Below are positions 172 to 22,191 of a DNA stretch of 64,000 nt, one piece after another. The translations under genes and the position numbers were made by a program. The notes under the pieces were generated by a model. It saw only the letters and a list, made by a program, of their open reading frames with translations, had not been told where the DNA came from and did not search any database. Each line of letters begins with the position of its first letter. The stretch's first letter is position 1. This stretch comes from Bacteroides rodentium JCM 16496 (lineage in GTDB: Bacteria; Bacteroidota; Bacteroidia; Bacteroidales; Bacteroidaceae). The stretch spans positions 1 to 64,000 of the forward strand of contig NZ_BAKJ01000019.1 of the NCBI RefSeq assembly GCF_000614125.1, given 5' to 3'.

Positions 172-502
172 ATGGCGAAGTATCCGATTAACAAGGGAAT
201 CGGCCGCAGCCGGAGTTCAAGGGGCTCAAGAGTCAGTACCTGTTCATCTTCGCCGGAGGCTGCTCGCCCTGTTCGTGGTGTTCGTCATCATGTACATGGC
301 AGGCATTGACCAGTGGATATGCATCGGTTTCGGGGTCATTTCCGCATCGGTGCTGGTCTGGGCGACCTTCCGCATGAACACGAAGTACGGCGAATGGGGT
401 CTGATGAAGCTCCAGGCGTTGCGCAGACATCCCCGCTACATCATCAACCGAAGAAAGTTCCTTCGGTTGTTCTCTTCAACCATCAAAAACAGAAAAGCAT
501 GA
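172..502 (+). CDS. traF: TraF, conjugative transfer protein (DUF4133), broken by two frame changes
   Basis: The ATG at 172 gives MAKYPINKGIGR. The TraF-like sequence then continues in a different frame from about 213 (EFKGLKSQYLFIFAGG) and in the third frame from 260 (LLALFVVFVIMYMAG onward) to the TGA at 500-502. Each step is explained by one missing base, near 208-213 and near 258-260. Put together, the protein would be about 110 residues with a hydrophobic hairpin in the middle, the normal size for a VirB3-like DUF4133 protein. The stop overlaps the traG start (ATGA), as expected for coupled tra genes. Given the same defect in housekeeping genes elsewhere in this window, the breaks are probably sequence errors, but a real double mutation would disable transfer. 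Confidence 0.75.
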
Positions 503-2997
503 GAAACGTAATGAAAACAGCCACGCTGGAAAGCAAGTTCCCACTGCTTGCCGTGGAGGACGGCTGCATCATCAGCAAGGACGCGGACATCACCGTGGCG
601 TACAGGGTGGAACTGCCCGAACTTTTTACGCTGACCCGTGCCGAGTACGAGGCGATGCACTCCACTTGGGCGAAAGCGGTCAAGGTACTGCCGAACTACA
701 GCATCGTGCACAAGCAGGACTTCTTCATTGAGGAAAGCTACCGTCCTGACATCTGCAAGGACGGCATGAGCTTCCTCGGCCGCAGTTTCGAGCGGCACTT
801 CAACGAGCGTCCGTACTTGCAGCACACCTGCTACCTGTTCCTGACCAAGACCACGAATGAACGCAGCCGCACGACCAGCAGTTTCAACGCCCTGACACGA
901 GGGTTCATCATCCCCAAGGAAATGCAGGACAGGGAGACCGTCACCCGTTTCATGGAGTGCTGCGGCCAGTTCGAGCGTATCGTGAACGACAGCGGCCTGC
1001 TCCGCATCACGCGCCTGACGGACGGGGAGATAACCGGAACGGAGAGTTCGGCGGGCATCATCGAGAAATACTTCTCGCTCTCGCAGGAGGATACCGCCTG
1101 CTTGCAGGACCTTTCGCTCGGGGCCGGGGAAATGAAGGTAGGCGACAACTACTTCTGCCTGCACACCCTTTCCGACCCGGAAGACCTGCCGTCAGGCGTG
1201 GCCACGGACTGCCGTTATGAACGGCTCTCCACCGACCGGAGCGACTGTCGCCTGTCATTTGCCGCACCGATAGGCATCCTGCTCACCTGCAACCACATAG
1301 TGAACCAGTACCTCTTCATCGACGATTCGGCGGAGAACCTGCGGAAGTTCGAGCAGACCGCGAGGAACATGCACTCGCTTTCCCGTTACAGCCGTTCCAA
1401 CCAGATTAACCGCGAATGGATCGAGGAATACCTGAACGAAGCGCACAGCAAGGGGCTGACCTCCATCCGTGCGCACTGTAATGTCATGGCGTGGAGCGAT
1501 GACCGGGAAAAACTCAAGTGCATCAAGAACGATGTGGGCAGCCAGCTGGCATTGATGGAAGCGAAGCCGCGCCACAACACGGTGGACGTGCCGACCTTGT
1601 TCTGGGCGGCGATACCCGGCAATGCCGGTGATTTCCCGTCCGAGGAGAGTTTCTACACCTTTATCGAACAGGCATTGTGCCTGTTCGTGGGGGAAACCTC
1701 CTACAAGGACTCGCTTTCCCCATTCGGCATCCGCATGGTGGACCGTCTGACCGGAAAACCCGTCCATCTGGATATTTCAGACCTGCCGATGAAGAACGGC
1801 ACGATTACGAACCGCAACAAGTTCATACTCGGACCTTCAGGCAGCGGAAAATCCTTCTTCACCAACCACATGGTGCGACAGTATTACGAACAGGGTACAC
1901 ACGTGCTGTTGGTGGATACGGGAAACTCCTATCAAGGGCTGTGTAACCTTATCCATGCGCGGACACACGGAGAGGACGGTATCTATTTTACCTACAAGGA
2001 GGAAGATCCGATAGCCTTCAATCCTTTTTATGTGGAGGATGGTGTTTTCGACATCGAGAAGAAGGAGTCCATCAAGACCCTTATCCTTACCCTGTGGAAA
2101 CGTGACGACGAACCGCCAACACGTGCCGAGGAGGTGGCACTCTCCAATGCCGTCAATCTCTTTTTAGAGAAGATTCGGCAGGAAAAGCAGTCCAATCCCA
2201 CTTTCAACACCTTCTACGAGTTCATCCGGGACGAGTACCGGGACATCCTGAAACAGAAGCGCACCCGTGAGAAAGATTTCGACGTGTTCAATTTTCTGAA
2301 CGTATTGGAACCCTATTACCGTGGCGGCGAATATGACTACCTGCTCAACTCGGACAAACAGCTTGACTTGTTAAGTAAACGATTCATTGTCTTCGAGTTG
2401 GACAATATCAAGGACAACAAGGTCTTGTTCCCGATTGTGACCATTATCATCATGGAAACCTTCATCAACAAGATGAGGAAGCTGAAGGGTGTCCGCAAGA
2501 TGATATTGCTGGAAGAAGCCTGGAAAGCCATCAGCAAGGAGGGTATGGCGGAATATCTGAAATACCTCTTCAAGACCGTCCGCAAGTTCTTCGGTGAGGC
2601 GGTGGTCGTCACTCAGGAAGTGGAGGACATCATTTCCTCTTCCATAGTCAAAGGCACCATCATCAACAACAGCGACTGCAAGATTCTCCTTGACCAAAGG
2701 AAATACGTCAACAAGTTCGATGAGATACAGGCACTGCTCGGTCTGACGGACAAGGAACGGGCGCAGATACTCTCCATCAACATGGCGAACAACCCTTCCC
2801 GGAAATACAAGGAAGTCTGGATCGGCCTGGGCGGAACGCAGTCGGCGGTCTATGCCACAGAAGTGTCGCTTGAGGAATATGTATGCTACACCACAGAAGA
2901 GACCGAGAAACTTGAGCTTATGCGGCTTACGGAAAAACTGGGTGGCAATATCGAACTTGCCATAAAACAACTTGCCGAGAGCAAGCGGGAAAAGTGA
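499..2997 (+). CDS. traG: TraG, VirB4-type conjugation ATPase
   Basis: This 832-residue protein is the cytoplasmic motor ATPase of the conjugative type IV secretion system, which powers channel assembly and substrate transfer. A Walker A motif GPSGSGKS is at residues 445-452 and a Walker B segment MILLEEAW is near 668-675. The N-terminal 400 residues correspond to the VirB4/TraG N domain. I chose the ATG at 499 because it overlaps the traF stop by ATGA and gives MRNVMKTATLE, the usual beginning of this family; the frame stays open further upstream, but that is traF sequence. The length is normal for TraG. It is the second complete gene of the + strand tra operon. Confidence 0.95.
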   Translation: MRNVMKTATLESKFPLLAVEDGCIISKDADITVAYRVELPELFTLTRAEYEAMHSTWAKAVKVLPNYSIVHKQDFFIEESYRPDICKDGMSFLGRSFERHFNERPYLQHTCYLFLTKTTNERSRTTSSFNALTRGFIIPKEMQDRETVTRFMECCGQFERIVNDSGLLRITRLTDGEITGTESSAGIIEKYFSLSQEDTACLQDLSLGAGEMKVGDNYFCLHTLSDPEDLPSGVATDCRYERLSTDRSDCRLSFAAPIGILLTCNHIVNQYLFIDDSAENLRKFEQTARNMHSLSRYSRSNQINREWIEEYLNEAHSKGLTSIRAHCNVMAWSDDREKLKCIKNDVGSQLALMEAKPRHNTVDVPTLFWAAIPGNAGDFPSEESFYTFIEQALCLFVGETSYKDSLSPFGIRMVDRLTGKPVHLDISDLPMKNGTITNRNKFILGPSGSGKSFFTNHMVRQYYEQGTHVLLVDTGNSYQGLCNLIHARTHGEDGIYFTYKEEDPIAFNPFYVEDGVFDIEKKESIKTLILTLWKRDDEPPTRAEEVALSNAVNLFLEKIRQEKQSNPTFNTFYEFIRDEYRDILKQKRTREKDFDVFNFLNVLEPYYRGGEYDYLLNSDKQLDLLSKRFIVFELDNIKDNKVLFPIVTIIIMETFINKMRKLKGVRKMILLEEAWKAISKEGMAEYLKYLFKTVRKFFGEAVVVTQEVEDIISSSIVKGTIINNSDCKILLDQRKYVNKFDEIQALLGLTDKERAQILSINMANNPSRKYKEVWIGLGGTQSAVYATEVSLEEYVCYTTEETEKLELMRLTEKLGGNIELAIKQLAESKREK

Positions 2998-3029
2998 AAT
3001 CATTTATCAACCATTAAACATTAGAAATC

Positions 3030-3650
3030 ATGTACAGTAATTTGGAATCTGACGAAAGGAAACGCGACGAGGTCGTGTCATGCCTCTACTGGTCCCTGAT
3101 GCAGAACTGGAACATTCCGCGGTCGATACAGGACTGTTACGGGTTTACGGAGGACTACAGGCTGTTCCATCGGCTTGAGGAGATGAGTCCCGATGAATAC
3201 CGGCAGAAAAGGCTGACGGGAGAAGTACCGGACAGTCTGGAGGTCGATGCCCGGCTGACCCACCGGGCGGAAGCACTTTTCGAGAGGCTTTGTCCCCGTC
3301 CTCCGGCCGATTACCTTGACAAACTAAACGGGGAACTGGAAAGATTGGGATGGATTGCCGCTTCACCGGATACCGTCCACGACATTATCCATATCAGTCC
3401 TTCTTTTCTTGTCAAGTACGGCATAGACAAAAACGCTTCCGCTGCGGAACGCTCGTGTCAGGCGGAAAAGGCATACCGGGAACTGGATGTCCGTTTTGTC
3501 AGGATGACCGGCCGCAGACCGTATGCCGATGAGTTCTTTTCATCGCTTAGACGTGAAACGGAAAAGGCTGCAAAGGAGAACCGTCCAAAGCAGGTTCATC
3601 GGACCATCCTGCGTAACCCGCCGTCCAAGGGACGGAAAATGTCATTCTGA
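3030..3650 (+). CDS. Conserved tra-operon protein of unknown function (traH position)
   Basis: This is a 206-residue, charged, soluble-looking protein with no signal peptide or membrane segment. It lies 32 bases after traG and 38 bases before traI, on the same strand, so it is almost certainly part of the tra transcript. The position is that of traH in CTnDOT-type operons, but I cannot confirm from sequence that it is the same protein, so no symbol is given. The C-terminus is basic (RPKQVHRTILRNPPSKGRK), which could mean nucleic-acid or membrane-surface contact. No catalytic motif is visible. Confidence 0.75.
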   Translation: MYSNLESDERKRDEVVSCLYWSLMQNWNIPRSIQDCYGFTEDYRLFHRLEEMSPDEYRQKRLTGEVPDSLEVDARLTHRAEALFERLCPRPPADYLDKLNGELERLGWIAASPDTVHDIIHISPSFLVKYGIDKNASAAERSCQAEKAYRELDVRFVRMTGRRPYADEFFSSLRRETEKAAKENRPKQVHRTILRNPPSKGRKMSF

Positions 3651-3688
3651 AATCCAACATTCTATTCACAATTAAAAACAGAAACATC

Positions 3689-4318
3689 ATGAAAAAGAAA
3701 ATTATCATGCTGTGTATGGGCTGTTTCTTTGTCAGCCTCACGGCGAAAGCGCAATGGGTGGTGACCGACCCGACCAATCTTGCCCAAGGTATCATCAATG
3801 CCGCGAAAAACATCGTGCAGACATCCACGACGGCGACCAATATGATCAACAATTTTCAGGAAACCGTAAAGATTTACAAACAGGGAAAGGAGTTCTATGA
3901 CGGGCTCCGCAAGGTCAAGAACCTCGTCCGTGACGCGCGTAAGGTGCAGCAGACCATCCTTATGGTCGGTGACATCACGGACATTTACGTGAACAGCTTC
4001 GAGCGTATGCTCAGCGACCCTTACTTCACGCCGGAGGAACTGAGTGCAATCGCTTTGGGTTACACCAAACTGCTGGAAGAGAGTGCGCATTTGCTGAACG
4101 ACCTGAAGACGGTGGTCAACGAGAACGGCCTGTCGATGAACGACAAGGAACGGATGGATATAATCGACCGCTGCTACAACGACATGCTGCAATACCGCAG
4201 TCTCGTGCAGTATTACACCAACAAGAACATCGGCGTTTCCTACCTGCGTGCCAAGAAACGGAACGACCTTGACCGCGTGATGGCCCTTTACGGCTCGCCT
4301 AACGAACGTTACTGGTAA
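3689..4318 (+). CDS. traI: TraI, conjugative transfer protein (DUF4141)
   Basis: This 209-residue protein starts with a clear Sec signal peptide (MKKKIIMLCMG..., cleavage likely after AKA near residue 21) and is otherwise hydrophilic and helical, so it is probably periplasmic. The sequence fits the DUF4141/TraI family found between traG and traJ in CTnDOT-like elements. By position and export signal it may play a VirB5-like role in the mating channel; this is inference. It is 18 bases from traJ and co-directional. Confidence 0.88.
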   Translation: MKKKIIMLCMGCFFVSLTAKAQWVVTDPTNLAQGIINAAKNIVQTSTTATNMINNFQETVKIYKQGKEFYDGLRKVKNLVRDARKVQQTILMVGDITDIYVNSFERMLSDPYFTPEELSAIALGYTKLLEESAHLLNDLKTVVNENGLSMNDKERMDIIDRCYNDMLQYRSLVQYYTNKNIGVSYLRAKKRNDLDRVMALYGSPNERYW

Positions 4319-4336
4319 TCCTAAATCCGAACGCTT

Positions 4337-5341
4337 ATGGTATTGTTGGCAGCAAATTTTGACAACCTGCACCAGATCCTGCAAAACCTGTACACGGATA
4401 TGATGCCGCTATGCTCGCAAATGACGGGCGTGGCAAAAGGACTTGCCGGATTGGGAGCTTTGTTTTATGTAGCATATCGTGTATGGCAGTCCCTGGCAAG
4501 GGCCGAGCCGGTCGATGTGTTCCCGCTCCTCCGTCCTTTCGCACTGGGGCTCTGCATCATGTTCTTTCCGACCCTTGTGCTGGGTACGCTGAACAGTGTC
4601 ATGTCACCCATAGTAAAGGGTACGCACACGATTCTGGAGACCCAGACCTTCGATATGAACGAGTACAGGGCACAGAAGGACAGACTGGAGCTGGAAGCGA
4701 TGAAACGCAATCCCGAGACGGCCTACTTAGTGGATAAGGAAGCCTTTGACAACAAGTTGGATGAACTGGGTGTATTGGACGCGATAGAAGCCTGCGGGAT
4801 GTACGTGGACCGCGCGATGTACAACATGAAGAAGGCGGTACAGAACTTTTTCCGTGAACTGCTGGAACTCATGTTCAACGCCGCCGCCCTTGTCGTCGAT
4901 ACGCTCAGGACATTCTTCCTTGTCGTCCTTTCGATACTCGGGCCGATTTCCTTTGCCATCTCCTGCTGGGACGGCTTCCAGGCTTCCCTCAGCCAGTGGT
5001 TCGTCCGCTATATCAGTATCTACCTGTGGCTTCCGGTCAGCGACCTGTTCAGCAGCGTGCTGGCAAGAATACAGGTGCTGATGCTCAAGCAGGACATAGA
5101 ATTACTTGCTGATCCCAATTTCATCCCCGACGGCTCGAACGGTGTGTATATCACCTTCCTGATTATCGGCATCATCGGGTACTTCACCATCCCGACAGTG
5201 GCCAACTGGATCATCCAGGCAGGCGGCGGTGCGGGCAATTACGGCAAGAACGTGAGCCAGACGGCATCCAGGACCGGGTCGATCGTGGCGGGTACGGCCG
5301 GTGCGGCGGTGGGCAATATCGCCGGAAGGCTTATCAAGTAA
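4337..5341 (+). CDS. traJ: TraJ, VirB6-like inner-membrane channel protein
   Basis: This 334-residue polytopic membrane protein has hydrophobic segments near residues 28-50, 65-85, 185-215 and 270-292. The C-terminal tail is rich in small residues (GGGAGNYGKN). This is the expected layout of the Bacteroidetes TraJ family, the counterpart of VirB6, which forms part of the inner-membrane translocation pore. The length is normal. It sits between traI and traK with gaps of about 20 bases. The start is ATG, giving MVLLAANFDNLHQ. Confidence 0.92.
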   Translation: MVLLAANFDNLHQILQNLYTDMMPLCSQMTGVAKGLAGLGALFYVAYRVWQSLARAEPVDVFPLLRPFALGLCIMFFPTLVLGTLNSVMSPIVKGTHTILETQTFDMNEYRAQKDRLELEAMKRNPETAYLVDKEAFDNKLDELGVLDAIEACGMYVDRAMYNMKKAVQNFFRELLELMFNAAALVVDTLRTFFLVVLSILGPISFAISCWDGFQASLSQWFVRYISIYLWLPVSDLFSSVLARIQVLMLKQDIELLADPNFIPDGSNGVYITFLIIGIIGYFTIPTVANWIIQAGGGAGNYGKNVSQTASRTGSIVAGTAGAAVGNIAGRLIK

Positions 5342-16382: not shown

Positions 16383-16892
16383 TTAGTCGTAATTGTCATC
16401 GAATATCTCGAAGCGGGGAATGCCCGGCTCGAAATAGTTGCCCGATATGCCCGGGTAGTACAGCAAACTATCATCCCCGCTGTCCGGGCAAGGTTCGTCA
16501 TTTATATAGGTCGCGTTCCCGAAAAGTTCGATATAATGCGCCACCAGCAGGTGAGGGTCTTCCGTGCCGATGTCGTGCCCGTAACGGTCACACCAGTCGA
16601 AGAAGCAATCCTTGTCGGGTTCCTCCAGTTGTTCCATCGCTTCCCTTATTTCAAAAAAGTTGGGACACAGCCATTCCCTGTTGATGAGCGAGTCCGGAAT
16701 GTCCTCCCATCTCGTGTACCTGTATTCCGGGGTTTCCTCTTCCGGAAACAGCTCGGAGCAGGTACACAGGAATTCCCCCATGTCGCCGAAGTCGGCCATT
16801 TGCAGCAGGCTGTCTTTTTCCTGCCTCGTGTCTATGAGATGCTGCGTGGTCACTGCCACTTCTGCCTGATTCAAGTCCATGATATTCTTCAT
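16383..16892 (-). CDS. Acidic protein, possibly ArdA-like antirestriction factor
   Basis: This 169-residue protein has roughly 40 Asp/Glu against about 10 Lys/Arg, an extreme negative charge spread over its length. The size and charge match ArdA proteins, which mimic B-DNA and block type I restriction enzymes. The C-terminal part LVAHYIELFG ... ISGNYFEPGIPRFEIF resembles, from memory, the end of the Tn916 ArdA (VARYYIEETG ... LSGTF ... FEIV). This is suggestive but not proof. The gene is the first one after the palindromic element at 16908-17090. If ArdA-like, it would protect incoming element DNA. Confidence 0.45.
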   Translation of the reverse strand: MKNIMDLNQAEVAVTTQHLIDTRQEKDSLLQMADFGDMGEFLCTCSELFPEEETPEYRYTRWEDIPDSLINREWLCPNFFEIREAMEQLEEPDKDCFFDWCDRYGHDIGTEDPHLLVAHYIELFGNATYINDEPCPDSGDDSLLYYPGISGNYFEPGIPRFEIFDDNYD

Positions 16893-16907: not shown

Positions 16908-17090
16908 GGAACCGGGGATTTCATTCCACAGGCGTATAAAGGTCCGCGCCCCGGCAGTGCAGGGTTTTTCGGGGAAATACCGGAGCCTCCGGCGAGGATG
17001 ATTTGCCCGAAAACCGCCTGCGGCCTGACCTTGCTCTGCCGGAAAAGGGTGCGGGCTACCTTTGCCTGTGGAATGTAATCTGCGGTTCTC
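16908..17090 (-). repeat. Long imperfect palindrome B, candidate single-strand promoter
   Basis: The region folds end to end: GAACCG...CATTCCACAGGC on the left pairs with GCCTGTGGAATG...CGGTTC on the right, and inner arms GGCAGTGCAGGGT and ACCTTGCTCTGCC-like sequence continue the stem up to the loop GCGAGGATGATTT. A diverged copy is at 22001-22191 with the same loop. TACCTTTGC, a Bacteroides -7 type element, is in the right arm at about 17077-17085. The left base is 16 bases before the start of the ArdA-like gene. A 70-codon - strand frame (16892-17104) crosses the structure; the other copy of that frame has no start codon, so I treat this as a structural element and not a gene. Confidence 0.65.
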
Positions 17091-17108: not shown

Positions 17109-20100
17109 TCAACTCATTATTCGCTGGCTTCCCCAGCTGATGTGTATCTTTCCCTCGCTGTCGCGTTCCCTGACCAGCAGGCTCTCGATGACGGACATGG
17201 TGACGTCGAACTCCTCGAAAATCTCGGACTGCTCCTTCACTTCTCCGGTCTTGATGAACTCGTTCAGCCGTTCTTTGGTCAATACCAGGGCCATCAGGTT
17301 CTGCTCCACAGAATCCTTGTAGGTGACATAATGCACGTCCTTCAGCTCTTTAGAGTCAAGACGTATGAAGCGGAAATAGAACTGTTCCATCTTCGGGATG
17401 TTCCATTGGAGCGATTCAAGTATCACGTCGTTGCAGGTGGGGATGTTCACCGAGCTGCTCAGGCTCTGCTGCGTGCAGACCAGTATGCCGTTTACGGTGG
17501 AGTCGAACTCCGTCACGATGCTTTGCCGTTTCTTGAAAGCCACGTCTCCCTTGACCACGAATACCGGCCTGTCGGGAAAACATTCGCGGAGACGGTTCCC
17601 GTAGAGGTCGAATGCGGCTATGGACGTGCAGCCGACGGCCACTTTGCCGGGAATCTTCCGTATCAGTCTCTCGATGTACCTTGTTTTTTTCGGAATCCCG
17701 TCACCGGAATAGCCCTCTATCAGGTGGGGGACGGAACAGGCCTTGATGAGTAGCTTGATCTGCCGCATAAGACGTAGTCCGGCATCCTTCTTCGTGTCAC
17801 CCGTGCTGTTGTAATACAACTCGCAGATACGGCAGAACTCCTCGATGATGACACGGTAAACCTCGCGTTCGCCATCGGCAGGGCTGACGGTGTGTGTCCG
17901 TATCTTGTACTTCTCGCCGGCAAAGTCCCTGAACTTGCGGGTGATGACGGTCTTCCCGATAAGCTCTGCAAGTTCCTCTTTGTTATAGACATCCTGGTTC
18001 TGTTTCTCTATTCCGAACACGGTGGATTTTCCCGGACAGTGGCAGGCGCGGAAAAGTACATGCCCCCTGAAAGCAGGGAACGGCTCACCGTAATGCGGGT
18101 TGTTTTCTTCCTCTATCTCCTTGTCCCTGTTCTCGTGGTACACCCGGCTGCTCCAGCAGATCATATTTACGGAGTTGTTGTACAGCAGCTCGAACTGGCT
18201 GTACAGTTCTGCGATGTTGTTTCGGGTGGTCGTTCCGGTATCGAGTATTTTGTACTTGAACCTGCGGAAGAGTCCGAGGATATGCCTTGTGCGCTGTGAC
18301 GAAGGGTTGGTTATCTCGTCCGATTCGTCAAAAACGAGGCATAGTTTTCTTGAGGAGCGTTTGACAAATTTCGTCAGCCCCCGTTTCAGTTTGCCGAGCA
18401 TGGAGGTGGAGAGCACAATGAACACGCCTTCCGGTACGGTTTCAAGGTCGGCATTGTTCCGTATAATCCTGAACCTTTCCCTGTTTATGGAGAGAAATGG
18501 TATCCATGTCATGTTGGTGGCAATGGCGGGGGCCAGTATGATGACGTTCCGTACCTTGCGGAATTTGAGCAGGTATTTGGCACGGTGATAGACCGCCGCT
18601 GTCTTGCCCGATCCCTGCTGCCAGTTAAGCAGCGCGTAGCGTTTCTGCAAAACGAGGTTCAGGTCGTGCTTCTGGAGTGCGGTGAACTCGCATACGTCAC
18701 CGTCCTTGTTGATGAATGTCACCCTGTCAAGGTATTCCGCCAGTTGGGTGTCCGGCTTCATGTCGGGAAACTGCCGGTTCTGGATTTCATATTGCCTGCG
18801 TTTCCTACGGATCAGCTTCTCTGCCACATGGATTTCACGCATGTTCTTTTCTGTCAGGATTTCCGGCATGGGCAGTTCGGTGCGCCCCAACACGAGGTCG
18901 TTGATGCCTGCCGCCTTGTGCGAAACCTTGTCTAACAGTCGTGGGGCGTACTGTTTCAGTTTGAACCCGTAGGAGGTCTTTACCAATGCCACTTCCTTGC
19001 GTGGCACGACATTCTGCGAGGTGATGTACCTACGGATGACGGCAAGCACTTTCTTCGGGGTAAGCTTGTTCTTTTCCCATTGCGCGACTTGTTCCCGTGT
19101 GGCGTTCTCCGGCGGTTTCTGGTTGCGGAACTTCGTGACCAGTGCTTCCGCCTTGCCGATATGTTTGTTCAACTTGGCGTGTGCCTTCAGTTCGTACATG
19201 TACTTGGCGAGCCTATACTCGAACACTTCAAGCTCTTCCTTGTCTATCCTGTTTGTCTCGCGCATCAGGTCGAAACGCAGCCTGTGTTTCATCGTCCTTG
19301 CTTCGCTGATACGGTTCTTCAATTCTTCCGCCGTTATGAATTCCTCCGCGTTGTAAGCCTGCATCTCGATATGAACCGATTTGCGCAGGAATACCATGAT
19401 TTTCGTATTGAAATCGCGGACTCCGACGGAGGCAAAGGCTGACGGAGACAGTTTTGTCTGTCCGACAAAAGAAAAGTTGTTATTGATACTGGCAACCCGT
19501 GTTTTCTCCCAAAATTCACTCTGCATAAACGAGCCGGGTACTATGGCCATCAGGATTCCTGCCGGGTTGAGCACGTCGTATGCCTTGTCTATGTAGTATT
19601 CCTGTGACAGCTTGTAATCGAACTTCAGGTTGAAAGGTGGATTGCCGATGACTACATCGAAGCGTTGTTCCGGATAATACTGCCGGATGTCACATTTTTC
19701 GATATGCGCGTCCGGATAGAGGTATCGCGCCACGCTGACGGCTTTCCCGTCTATGTCGAAGCCGTAGGTGTTGTGCTGGTTGGGCAGATGATTGAAGAAA
19801 TTGCCCATACCGCAACACATGTCAAGTATCATTTCGGAAGTGTTGGGAGAAAGCATCTCCACCATATCCCTGCACACTTCATGCGGGGTGAAGAACTGTC
19901 CCATCTCAAACTCCTTCTTCGCTTCGGCGTACTCGTTGTAATTGGCGAAATCGGATTGCCTGAGGTTGTGAAGCCCTCCGATGCCGGTGTAGCAGTTATA
20001 GATGCTCTCCGCCGGAATGAGGTCCTTGCCGGAGTCTATGGCGAAAAGTATCTTCTCGTTGACCTCGGCACGCATACCTTGCGGTATCTGTTGGGGAATG

Positions 20101-20111
20101 ATGGCATACAT
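17109..20111 (-). CDS. DNA N6-adenine methyltransferase fused to SF2 helicase
   Basis: This 1000-residue protein has two enzymatic parts. The N-terminal methyltransferase has motif I DMCCGMGNF (residues 97-105) and motif IV NPPF (157-160), typical of adenine-N6 methylation. The C-terminal part is a superfamily 2/SNF2-type helicase with Walker A QGSGKT (499-504) and a Walker B variant DESD (595-598). No nuclease motif is seen and there is no restriction gene nearby. Such fusions are widespread in Bacteroides conjugative elements and are plausibly anti-restriction or DNA-maintenance factors. I start at ATG 20111, because the longer in-frame start (GTG at 20147) falls in the T-run of a terminator. 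Confidence 0.85.
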   Translation of the reverse strand: MYAIIPQQIPQGMRAEVNEKILFAIDSGKDLIPAESIYNCYTGIGGLHNLRQSDFANYNEYAEAKKEFEMGQFFTPHEVCRDMVEMLSPNTSEMILDMCCGMGNFFNHLPNQHNTYGFDIDGKAVSVARYLYPDAHIEKCDIRQYYPEQRFDVVIGNPPFNLKFDYKLSQEYYIDKAYDVLNPAGILMAIVPGSFMQSEFWEKTRVASINNNFSFVGQTKLSPSAFASVGVRDFNTKIMVFLRKSVHIEMQAYNAEEFITAEELKNRISEARTMKHRLRFDLMRETNRIDKEELEVFEYRLAKYMYELKAHAKLNKHIGKAEALVTKFRNQKPPENATREQVAQWEKNKLTPKKVLAVIRRYITSQNVVPRKEVALVKTSYGFKLKQYAPRLLDKVSHKAAGINDLVLGRTELPMPEILTEKNMREIHVAEKLIRRKRRQYEIQNRQFPDMKPDTQLAEYLDRVTFINKDGDVCEFTALQKHDLNLVLQKRYALLNWQQGSGKTAAVYHRAKYLLKFRKVRNVIILAPAIATNMTWIPFLSINRERFRIIRNNADLETVPEGVFIVLSTSMLGKLKRGLTKFVKRSSRKLCLVFDESDEITNPSSQRTRHILGLFRRFKYKILDTGTTTRNNIAELYSQFELLYNNSVNMICWSSRVYHENRDKEIEEENNPHYGEPFPAFRGHVLFRACHCPGKSTVFGIEKQNQDVYNKEELAELIGKTVITRKFRDFAGEKYKIRTHTVSPADGEREVYRVIIEEFCRICELYYNSTGDTKKDAGLRLMRQIKLLIKACSVPHLIEGYSGDGIPKKTRYIERLIRKIPGKVAVGCTSIAAFDLYGNRLRECFPDRPVFVVKGDVAFKKRQSIVTEFDSTVNGILVCTQQSLSSSVNIPTCNDVILESLQWNIPKMEQFYFRFIRLDSKELKDVHYVTYKDSVEQNLMALVLTKERLNEFIKTGEVKEQSEIFEEFDVTMSVIESLLVRERDSEGKIHISWGSQRIMS

Positions 20112-20144
20112 ATTCTGTCGGTTGTTTACGGTTGAAAATGAAAA

Positions 20145-20172
20145 CACCCCGCAAGAATCGTCTTACGGGGTG
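20145..20172. terminator. Terminator between the methyltransferase gene and the gene upstream
   Basis: The arms CACCCCGCAAG and CTTACGGGGTG (11 pairs, one G-T) enclose a 6-base loop. On the - strand the stem is followed by TTTTCATTTT. It ends transcription of the 312-residue gene at 20194-21132 and shows that the methyltransferase start must lie further downstream, at 20111. Confidence 0.85.
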
Positions 20173-20193: not shown

Positions 20194-21132
20194 TCAGTTC
20201 TCTCTTAGCGTGATTTCATCAAGGCGGAGACGCTTGAAACAGTTTTCGGCAGTCGTGCTGTCCTTGAACTTGACATCTATGCGTCCGTTCTTGTAAAACC
20301 GGATTTGCTCGGCGTTGATCGTCGTGAGGTCGTACCAGCCGGAAACATCAACATTGTCAGCCTGGAAGCCGGTAATCATATTGCTTGAACCATGAATGGT
20401 GTCATCGGCACCGAACGCGATGCCTTCACAGAAGGTTTCTATGTCGCCCCGATAGTTGTAATGAATCTGGTTACGGTTGTATGACAGATAGAACTCATCA
20501 AATCTCAGAATTTCAGGGAATGTGATTTTATCTTTCTTCAGTTCCGGCTTGACCTTGCTCCAGCATGATGGACGGACTACTTTCAAGAACCTGTTCAACA
20601 GTTCCTCCTCTGCTGTTTCCCTGAAACTTTTGCCGCCAAGATGTTCTATGACAGCATCCACGTAGGTTTCATAGATTGGACGGAAGCCCATCGGAAGGGT
20701 ATTTTTCTCAATTTCCGGTACGGGGACAGAGACATTATATGTCTTGTTGAAATAGGAGATGATACGGCTGGCGAAATTAGCGTTGGCATTACAGTTCTTG
20801 TCAACCATATCATTGAGGATGTCAAACGGTTTGAACTCGTTGTGCGAATAGTCGTCCCTGTCGTTATGGTAGGAATAGAAATCACGCATGGATACCTTGC
20901 CGTTCTCCTCGTAGTGGAACTTGCGTTCCTCCCGGTACTGTTCCGCTTCCTCTTTGAAGATGGCGTACCAGCGGTCTATCCGGTCGAGTGTTTTGTAAAG
21001 CATGTCCTGTTGGTTCTGACAATAGATCCGGTCTTGCTCCGTAATCTTGTCCTCGTTTTTCACCTGCACGCTCAGGATACCGGAAAGCAGGTCGGGAGCG
21101 TTGCCGGCCTTAGTTGCTGTTGTCGTTTGCAT
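20194..21132 (-). CDS. Element-encoded protein, unknown function
   Basis: This 312-residue, soluble, charged protein has a helical N-terminal half containing DRIDRWYAIFKEEAEQYREE and a more strand-rich C-terminal part that ends in a basic segment (CFKRLRLDEITLREN). No catalytic motif is evident. It follows the DUF4121 gene by 20 bases and is closed by a strong terminator, so the two probably form one transcript starting near the palindromic element at 22001-22191. Confidence 0.7.
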   Translation of the reverse strand: MQTTTATKAGNAPDLLSGILSVQVKNEDKITEQDRIYCQNQQDMLYKTLDRIDRWYAIFKEEAEQYREERKFHYEENGKVSMRDFYSYHNDRDDYSHNEFKPFDILNDMVDKNCNANANFASRIISYFNKTYNVSVPVPEIEKNTLPMGFRPIYETYVDAVIEHLGGKSFRETAEEELLNRFLKVVRPSCWSKVKPELKKDKITFPEILRFDEFYLSYNRNQIHYNYRGDIETFCEGIAFGADDTIHGSSNMITGFQADNVDVSGWYDLTTINAEQIRFYKNGRIDVKFKDSTTAENCFKRLRLDEITLREN

Positions 21133-21152: not shown

Positions 21153-21981
21153 TTAGAAGTTCTGTGATTTGATTCGGTAGAAGCAGGTGATGTGTTTTTC
21201 CATGTCCTTGACAATCTTCACCTGTTCGGGATAAAAGTTGAGCCTCCGTTCTTCGGCCGGAGCATCAATCTTTTCCCATTCGGCGAGAGGAAGGAAGACA
21301 TATTCCCGACGGAAGCACCATACCACGATGTTGTTGTCCCAGTTGCCTTTGAATACCGTTCCCTCGTAGTCCTTTAGGAATTGCTGGAACTCTTTTTCAT
21401 CACTGAAAGCTGCATCAAAACCTTGATAGAGATTTCTTGCGGAACCGCTTGTGTCTTTGGTGAGGTAGAATTTCCGGTAAGTTTCGGTAGTGAAGTTCCC
21501 GTACTTTGGGTTAGGTTCGGCATAGAACCATAGCGGCACTTTGGCTATGAATGTCACTGCACCGTTGGCACACGCGCCGCAATGTCCCCAGTCCTTGAAC
21601 GCGCCGTCCGTCCATCGCAGGAACTTCATATCCTTCGGATTCACTCCGTGGAATGCCCCTCCGCTGACGCTCAGACGGATATTCCCGTCTTGTTCCCACA
21701 CGAAAGGCACATACGGCTGTTCGCATATGGAAAGATGCCCTTCCTTTGTGTGATGCCGGTTCTCGATGAGCGTTGCCGTAATAATCCCCGTCTTCGGTCA
21801 CATAGACCAGCCTGTCTCCGATTTGCGGTGTAATCTCCGAACGTGTACGTTCGATGAGTTCAACATAACTGTTGGCCATATCGACATCTTTCTGTGTCAG
21901 CCCGTGCTCGTTGTCGTATGAAACATTCCATGCTCTGAGTGTTTCAATACTGTACTTTTCTTTTGTCGCCTGCTGTAACAT
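21153..21981 (-). CDS. DUF4121-type element protein (one frame break)
   Basis: The N-terminal part (MLQQATKEKYSIETLRAWNV to DGDYYGNA) and the C-terminal part (LIENRHHTKEG, then PFVWEQDGNIRLSVSGG to the end) are in different frames. One base is missing near 21768-21773, where AACGCTCATCGAG would be expected to read AACGC-n-CTCATCGAG. The corrected protein is about 276 residues. It resembles the DUF4121 family found near the ends of Bacteroides conjugative elements; function unknown. It is the first gene after palindromic element A. The break is probably a sequence error. Confidence 0.7.
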
Positions 21982-22000: not shown

Positions 22001-22191
22001 TCCGGCTTTTCGGGGCCGGAGTTCCCGTAACTACAGGCTATAAAAGGTCGTGTCCCGTACATGCAAGGTTGGCGGGAAAAATACCGAAAGCCCTCCGGGC
22101 GAGGATGATTTTTCCACGACACCCGGAGGGCTTGACCTTGCATTGTACGAGCAGGACACGGATTACCTTTGCCTGTGAGTTAGGGGGACTC
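22001..22191 (-). repeat. Long imperfect palindrome A, candidate single-strand promoter
   Basis: The outer arms GTTCCCGTAACTACAGGC and GCCTGTGAGTTAGGGGGAC, the middle arms GTGTCCCGTACATGCAAGGT and ACCTTGCATTGTACGAGCAGGACAC, and the inner arms GCCCTCCGGG and CCCGGAGGGC form one long stem around the loop CGAGGATGATTT. A small stem TCCGGC...GCCGGA (22001-22020) sits at its left base. TACCTTTGC, a -7 type element, is at 22164-22172 in the right arm. The structure ends 20 bases before the DUF4121 gene. It is a diverged copy of the element at 16908-17090 in sequence, structure and position relative to a - strand gene. Confidence 0.7.

Follow-up and report, generated by a model that had tools for sequence, protein, structure and literature searches.

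The 64,000-nucleotide stretch of Bacteroides rodentium DNA that was analysed here, which we call the window, holds two long palindromes, A and B, and raises the question of what such elements do in a region that also carries part of the transfer operon of an ICE. The initial annotation, made from the letters of the stretch, had described A and B as two related folding palindromes with the geometry of the Frpo promoters of the F plasmid, from which RNA polymerase would run leftwards into a minus-strand gene once the + strand was single. Our analysis leads us to regard it as probable that A and B are ICE single-stranded-DNA promoters, Frpo-like with Bacteroidota boxes.

When folded as single-stranded DNA, A reached -60.7 kcal/mol against a shuffle mean of -26.9 kcal/mol, and B reached -63.5 kcal/mol; none of 200 dinucleotide shuffles was as good in either case, and the z-scores are given in Table 1. 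Chance palindromes were ruled out by these scores together with the copy number of the apical 13-mer GCGAGGATGATTT, which occurs 14 times in the B. rodentium genome, with 11 copies forward and 3 reverse, whereas the reversed control occurs 0 times. Every one of the 14 copies lies in a hairpin of the same kind, one of them truncated by a contig end. A and B align with each other and share the arm motifs listed in the initial annotation, except that GCAAGGT reads GCAGGGT in B, and GCGAGGATGATTT is present in both as the common central loop. They are related, as had been claimed, but they are not a lone pair, being two of the 14 genomic copies. The remaining details also proved accurate: TACCTTTGCCTGT, the proposed -7 element, sits in the right arm of both (22164-22176 in A, 17057-17069 in B), CTTG and TACC are separated by 23 bases in each, and minus-strand ORFs begin in the left flank at 21981 (A) and 16892 (B). 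The covariance model of the family described below detects, within the window, only A and B (E up to 1).

The genes of the window are listed in Table 1. The DUF4121 gene is split over two frames (21153-21981), and the operon copy that follows A thus begins with a broken gene. Among the scanned genes of the window presumed to be driven by the hairpins, the methylase/helicase protein was the only one with a match in NCBIfam and PADLOC. The layout of the window, with both the tra genes and the hairpins on the + strand, is that of the other ICEs inspected.

Table 1. Palindromes, proposed promoter elements and neighbouring genes in the window.
Feature	Position	Strand	Basis
Element A, family hairpin folding on the + strand	22012..22183	+	R1 covariance model, 105.9 bits; DNA fold z -11.2
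Element B, family hairpin folding on the + strand	16909..17076	+	R1 covariance model, 121.8 bits; DNA fold z -9.9
Apical motif of A, AAAAATACCG...GCGAGGATGATTT (A-tract stem, conserved internal loop)	22077..22111	+	Sequence
Apical 13-mer GCGAGGATGATTT of A	22099-22111	+	Sequence match
Apical 13-mer GCGAGGATGATTT of B	16992..17004	+	Sequence match
TACCTTTGC, right arm of A, proposed sigma-ABfr -7 box	22164..22172	+	Sequence match and family profile
TACCTTTGC, right arm of B, proposed sigma-ABfr -7 box	17057..17065	+	Sequence match and family profile
Proposed -33 box of A: CTTG, paired in the stem, 23 bases from the -7 box	22137..22140	+	Sequence; family pairing 91-100%
Proposed -33 box of B: CTTG, paired in the stem, 23 bases from the -7 box	17030..17033	+	Sequence; family pairing 91-100%
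N-terminal part of DUF4121 gene, predicted to be started by A, frame broken	21511..21981	-	Pfam DUF4121 positions 1-71
C-terminal part of the same broken DUF4121 gene	21153..21710	-	Pfam DUF4121 positions 85-264
312-aa gene without Pfam match, between DUF4121 and methylase/helicase	20194..21132	-	ORF list, Pfam
N6 DNA methylase and SNF2/helicase-C protein, 1012 aa, same strand, after A	17109..20147	-	Pfam
169-aa gene, predicted to be started by B	16383..16892	-	No Pfam, NCBIfam or PADLOC match
Part of ICE transfer operon, strand opposite to the genes presumed to be hairpin-driven (TraG 313-2997, TraJ 4337-5341)	313..5341	+	NCBIfam TIGR03783, TIGR03782

A scan of named genomes for AAATACCG, a spacer and GCGAGGATGATTT returned at least 113 stretches in at least 80 loci. 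Nearly all loci among the matches listed are titled Bacteroidales or Bacteroidota, with Phocaeicola vulgatus ATCC 8482, Bacteroides, Parabacteroides, Alistipes and Barnesiella among them; the matches under the titles Mesorhizobium, Verrucomicrobia and Kapabacteria have weak folds and look accidental. The conservation of AAATACCG and GCGAGGATGATTT in loci L017-L096 follows from the construction of the search pattern. In total, 100 unique copies were examined, mostly from Bacteroidales and with the B. rodentium genome included. Copies were retained when they had 105 nt of flank before and 115 nt after the start of the 13-mer, contained no ambiguous letters and had a + strand DNA fold not above -42 kcal/mol, which left 90 of the 100. 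Four of the ten dropped copies were short of flank (L010, one in L015, L044 and one in L058) and six folded weakly (L043, L056, L065, L072, L078 and L090). Because the fold filter was computed on the + strand, the retained set leans slightly to that strand. A covariance model was built from 37 cluster representatives, and covariation across homologues, which the initial annotation had proposed as a check, was found in their alignment, with compensatory change in 20 of the 32 consensus pairs. When applied to 247 genomes drawn from the phylum, the model gave at least nine positive genomes, of which seven belong to two further families within the class; owing to strict filters, this figure is a lower bound.

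Two further groups of records carry similar sequences. Metagenome-assembled genomes titled Clostridium sp. or Clostridiales (L021, L036, L069, L071) hold well-folded hairpins of the family, four of them in the record JAMPGY010000003.1, to which L021, L036 and L071 belong; these genomes are probably misnamed bins or contaminated. Similar stretches are also present in unannotated faecal contigs titled 'Bacteriophage sp.' (hits H8-H14: MT836373, MT837091, MT836551 and others), which may be ICE DNA in phage-enriched samples or may be mislabelled.

The promoter consensus of sigma-ABfr is TAnnTTTG at -7 and TTTG near -33 (PMC7366714), and the -7 box holds also in Flavobacterium (PMC9723704). The positions of this box lie outside the pattern by which the copies were collected. 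All 90 filtered copies match TAnnTTTGC in the right arm at five or more of the seven defined positions (7/7 in 52 copies, 6/7 in 35 and 5/7 in 3), and 87 of them at six or seven. The A is conserved in 100% of the copies, the three T in 100, 100 and 96%, the G in 94%, the C in 97% and the first T in 68%. In the left arm at this height, 22 copies match at 5/7 and the remaining 68 at two to four positions. An exact TAnnTTTGC was found in the left arm of one copy, L036, at 10 nt from the apical motif; the scans of the left arm begin 30 nt (profile) or 20 nt (strand test) from the centre, and hence neither sees this exception. In 16 more distant copies, found with a covariance model that includes the columns of the box, a slightly relaxed pattern placed the box in the right arm in 15 and in the left arm in none.

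The box lies in a bubble of the fold. Its TAnnTTT positions are paired in 31-43% of the copies, against 73-100% for the ten preceding bases and 90-99% for the following G and C, and a second unpaired stretch (18-22% paired) is found 12-14 bases before the box. The CTTG positions are paired in 91-100% across the family. The gap between CTTG and the box is 22 bases in 51 of 88 copies and ranges from 18 to 24. In sigma-ABfr promoters this gap is 19-21 bases; the mostly 22-23 bases seen here are slightly above it, which counts somewhat against the single-stranded-promoter reading. According to the mechanism that we propose, the + strand, when single, would fold into an imperfect hairpin of about 170 nt and so rebuild a sigma-ABfr promoter, with a duplex -33 region (CTTG in the GCAAGG/CCTTG stem) and with the -7 box (TAnnTTTGC) held open in the bubble on the non-template arm, above further duplex. 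RNA polymerase would start in the bubble, run out of the base of the hairpin and copy the single-stranded left flank, where the first gene starts tens of bases from the hairpin. Once the second strand had been made, the box would point away from the gene in duplex DNA and the gene would fall silent.

Since every G.T mismatch of the + strand corresponds to A.C in the complementary strand, the mismatches that a fold tolerates can tell which of the two strands folds. Single mismatches were counted when they were flanked by Watson-Crick pairs and present in both folds. Read on the + strand, the 90 filtered copies gave 75 G.T, 13 A.C and 96 other mismatches. Deduplication within the 37 similarity clusters, which removes relatedness in part, left 47 G.T against 10 A.C; counted per cluster, 22 favour G.T, 4 favour A.C, 2 are even and 9 contain no mismatch of either type (sign test, p 0.0005). 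In the reverse-complement control the mismatch numbers invert exactly. The + fold was the more stable one in 74 of the 90 copies and the - fold in 10. Among the 16 distant copies, the + fold was more stable in 15, as detected by a model itself built on the + strand, and the mismatch ratio was weaker, with 12 G.T to 5 A.C. By this comparative measure, the copies show the + strand to be the folding strand of the hairpin, in agreement with the earlier view of a folding + strand that carries the box as non-template strand.

The excess of G.T on the + strand speaks for a single + strand, be it DNA or RNA, and makes a leader RNA of the minus-strand gene less likely. A 5' leader of the minus-strand mRNA, acting as an attenuator, a riboswitch or a processing signal, would be suggested by the place of the palindrome, which in the window is flanked by minus-strand genes of one direction and is closely followed by a start codon. 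A minus-strand RNA should, however, tolerate A.C mismatches as read on the + strand, whereas these are outnumbered by G.T 13 to 75; the greater stability of the + fold also points the other way, and the TAnnTTTGC of the right arm would be left unexplained. A leader of this kind was rejected, since the mismatch test places the fold on the wrong strand for it, and we consider it extremely improbable. A function in duplex DNA, as an operator bound by a protein, as a cruciform or as a rightward promoter, would agree with the very high conservation of the apical 13-mer, as expected of a protein site, although for most loci this conservation is due to the way the search was constructed. Duplex DNA predicts no asymmetry between G.T and A.C, and an asymmetry was found; we hold this explanation to be very unlikely.

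A structured RNA read from the + strand, either antisense or a separate non-coding RNA, would tolerate G.T as well as DNA does. A known RNA family was rejected, as an Rfam scan of the window at the gathering score gave 0 matches. Furthermore, a role as RNA would account neither for the identity of the bubble motif with the -7 promoter box of the phylum nor for gene starts that lie to the left, on the antisense side, and we give such an RNA only a slight chance.

The position of genes beside the hairpins was analyzed in 82 copies with enough flank, taking ORFs of at least 50 aa. A minus-strand ORF starts 60-230 nt to the left of the 13-mer in 73 of the 82 copies, and 45 of these 73 starts fall at 115-126 nt; the gene that had been predicted for the left side of A and B is thus found at a single 12-base range of distances in a large part of the family. 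On the right, plus-strand ORFs start in 41 of 82 copies at scattered distances. This rate shows the background of short ORFs, so that short ORFs taken alone are weak evidence; what counts in the placement of the ORFs is that their distance is narrow and that the same protein families recur (69 of the 73 left-side ORFs fall in protein clusters of at least two, partly through related loci). A rightward duplex promoter, which predicts genes on the right, was rejected on the scattered 41 of 82. In duplex DNA the box of the right arm points away from the gene, and a minus-strand TAnnTTTG was found 20-130 nt to the left of the hairpin centre in 0 of 90 copies; as only about 1% would be expected by chance, an ordinary box is absent there, and avoidance is not implied.

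The same data bear on the possibility that the hairpins are single-strand initiation sites, where a polymerase or primase acting on the folded strand primes the synthesis of the second strand, gene expression being secondary. Such sites would also fold on a single + strand and could well be present in many copies per element and on both sides of oriT, as is the case here. The clustering of ORF starts beside the hairpin is, however, something that a primer site does not need, and we judge this function to be unlikely, if less so than those considered above.

With regard to the single-stranded-promoter reading, the genes that follow the hairpins elsewhere are also informative. Among the first genes at other loci are DUF4120, a SLOG protein of the YpsA type and small genes that precede PRTRC protein E; in one Parabacteroides record, the hairpin is followed by a hypothetical gene, by DUF4121 and by an N-6 DNA methylase. 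SSB genes are found near the hairpin at four distant loci in three genomes, with starts 140, 206, 304 and 141 nt away; at three of the four, SSB is the only ORF of at least 40 aa that starts within 450 nt, the fourth locus (L249) having a nearer ORF of 91 aa. Pfam confirms SSB at the three distant loci scanned, and the genes that follow SSB in L249 include DUF932 and PRTRC protein E. Some of these downstream genes (methyltransferase/helicase, SSB) fit a role in protection on entry.

Several minor features of these regions can be mentioned. The hairpins are often paired on the same strand about 560-660 bases apart, as in L014:5035-5777 and L131:7360-8108, where one small gene of the DUF4120 type lies between them, and similar pairs are present in L026, L033, L036, L040, L042, L062 and L073. 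In several copies, e.g. L011 and L014, a small GC hairpin (CCGGCT...AGCCGG) separates the big hairpin from the start codon and would belong to the 5' UTR. At L258:9462-10264, the usual relation is reversed: the hairpin precedes a MobA-type gene by about 200 bases, and no long ORF begins on its left; it is a probable remnant.

The family resembles Frpo1 and Frpo2 of the F plasmid and ssi of ColIb-P9 in that a long imperfect hairpin of single-stranded DNA rebuilds promoter boxes, that transcription leaves the base of the hairpin into the flank (predicted in the present case), that there is more than one copy per element and that, at some loci here, ssb is next downstream. In F, Frpo2 is followed by ssb-F, and single-stranded promoters are active before the second strand is synthesized (PMC9849209). 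Unlike Frpo and ssi, the Bacteroidota family has sigma-ABfr boxes in place of -35 and -10 elements, its box lies in a conserved bubble, it has a conserved apical motif, and it is carried by Bacteroidota ICEs with copies on both sides of oriT. Comparison of A with 72,556 PLSDB plasmid records by blastn gave no match, and the L014 copy matched 7 Parabacteroides/Phocaeicola records only among the same 72,556. The family works like Frpo in its anatomy, and homology is unsupported by blastn of these two copies against plasmid records.

Another partial parallel is offered by EGeRS of the pLS20-family plasmids, likewise a shared regulatory sequence repeated upstream of establishment genes (PMC8708921). 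The authors of that work rejected a single-stranded-DNA promoter because the transferred strand is non-template and they saw no promoter in the fold (PMC8708921), whereas a promoter box is present in the fold of the Bacteroidota hairpin. Ordinary sigma-ABfr promoters share with the hairpins the -7 box and an element at roughly the -33 distance, but in the hairpins this element is CTTG, not TTTG, and their box is in one arm of a palindrome and points away from the gene in duplex DNA. The large search for Frpo promoters used E. coli boxes, and 'bacteroid' is absent from its main text (PMC11541004). The initial annotation knew of no such element in Bacteroides; likewise, among the matches listed for the open-licence literature, none describes one in Bacteroidota.

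Comparative support also comes from the orientation of the hairpins with respect to the origin of transfer. Seen in the frame of the hairpin, the mob genes point to the left and the tra operon to the right at the 11 ICE loci of this type that were examined; the relaxase was identified by PF03432, and the names of the other mob and tra genes are putative. The gap between mob and tra holds a conserved motif, ACAnAnCTTGCtATnTTCnnnnGAAnAT, which we take, on the basis of its position and conservation, as a candidate oriT motif. On the contig of the window itself, a search for this motif found none. Hairpins were paired with the nearest motif on the same contig within 100 kb: 118 hairpins from 21 genomes were entered, 31 of them had no motif in range, and 86 of the other 87 share the orientation of their nearest candidate oriT motif. 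These pairs involve 27 oriT loci, and the hairpins lie on both sides of the motif, at positions between -74 and +97 kb; in five pairs of the 87 the distance exceeds 60 kb, and the motif may belong to another element. Left out of the pairing were G005 (1 hairpin) and G009 (4), which were not among the genomes searched for oriT, as well as G449 (7) and G524 (4), in which the coordinates of G004 and G009 recur. Part of the fixed orientation could be due to shared ancestry of the layout, against which stands the fact that the hairpins occupy many places before many genes. The one hairpin opposite to its motif is G006:C23:12898; the same apical letters occur in G006:C21 in the usual orientation, and a local inversion is possible.

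The strand that is transferred was considered from several sides. In 37 unique oriTs, the hairpin arms before the sequence ACAnCTTGC vary but keep their pairing; their folds contain 23 G.T pairs on the + strand against 5 on the - strand, their single mismatches are 7 G.T against 3 A.C, and the + fold is the more stable one in 23 and the - fold in 5. The ACTTG^C of the motif presumably resembles an RP4-type nick. The variable hairpin before ACAnCTTGC and the G.T bias on the + strand lead us to hold the + strand more likely than the minus strand. Relaxase genes typically enter last (PMC11541004), which here means transfer towards tra. A small inverted repeat, ATGTTC....GAACAT, is also conserved in the motif, as is the flank on its left. 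The usual order in an oriT is a hairpin, then about 8-10 nt, then the nick; read by this rule, the small inverted repeat would place the nick on the minus strand and exclude expression of the genes beside the hairpins from the entering strand. Furthermore, an integrase-defective CTnDOT is reported to transfer in an Hfr-like manner (PMC1976400), with a marker 20 kb from oriT (PMC5729914); if this marker was tetQ, the report suggests transfer towards mob. A search of PDB sequences with MobB gave one match (E 0.15). Judged from the oriT sequences, the + strand is the likelier candidate for the transferred strand. As regards the Frpo-like reading as a whole, the geometry and the folding strand are upheld by comparative evidence, while two hints on the transferred strand point the other way.

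On balance, we favour the broader view that Bacteroidota ICEs have their own, independently evolved single-stranded-DNA promoter regulon that spans the whole element. An ICE would have several hairpins, their strand set by oriT and their sigma-ABfr -7 box pre-melted for use by a sigma-ABfr polymerase, and these would fire operons of methylase, PRTRC, SLOG, DUF and SSB genes in the recipient before the second strand is made. Single-stranded promoters have so far been worked out in F-like enterobacterial plasmids; if the present reading is true, a dominant gut phylum has its own with different boxes, the reading names those genes of Bacteroidales ICEs that are expressed early and are probably protective, many of which have no known function, and it predicts the transferred strand of CTnDOT-type elements. 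The combination of a promoter box in a bubble of one arm with a G.T/A.C strand bias is a general mark that can be searched for in any phylum. The hairpins are also a candidate tool for gene expression only during transfer in commensal bacteria.

Finally, the oriT-like motif is common to Bacteroidales ICEs, being present in the mobA-traA gaps of L130, L133-L142 and L145-L195 with a variable paired hairpin, the conserved ACAnCTTGC and a covarying small inverted repeat, and it may be of use for finding ICEs and for mapping nicks.
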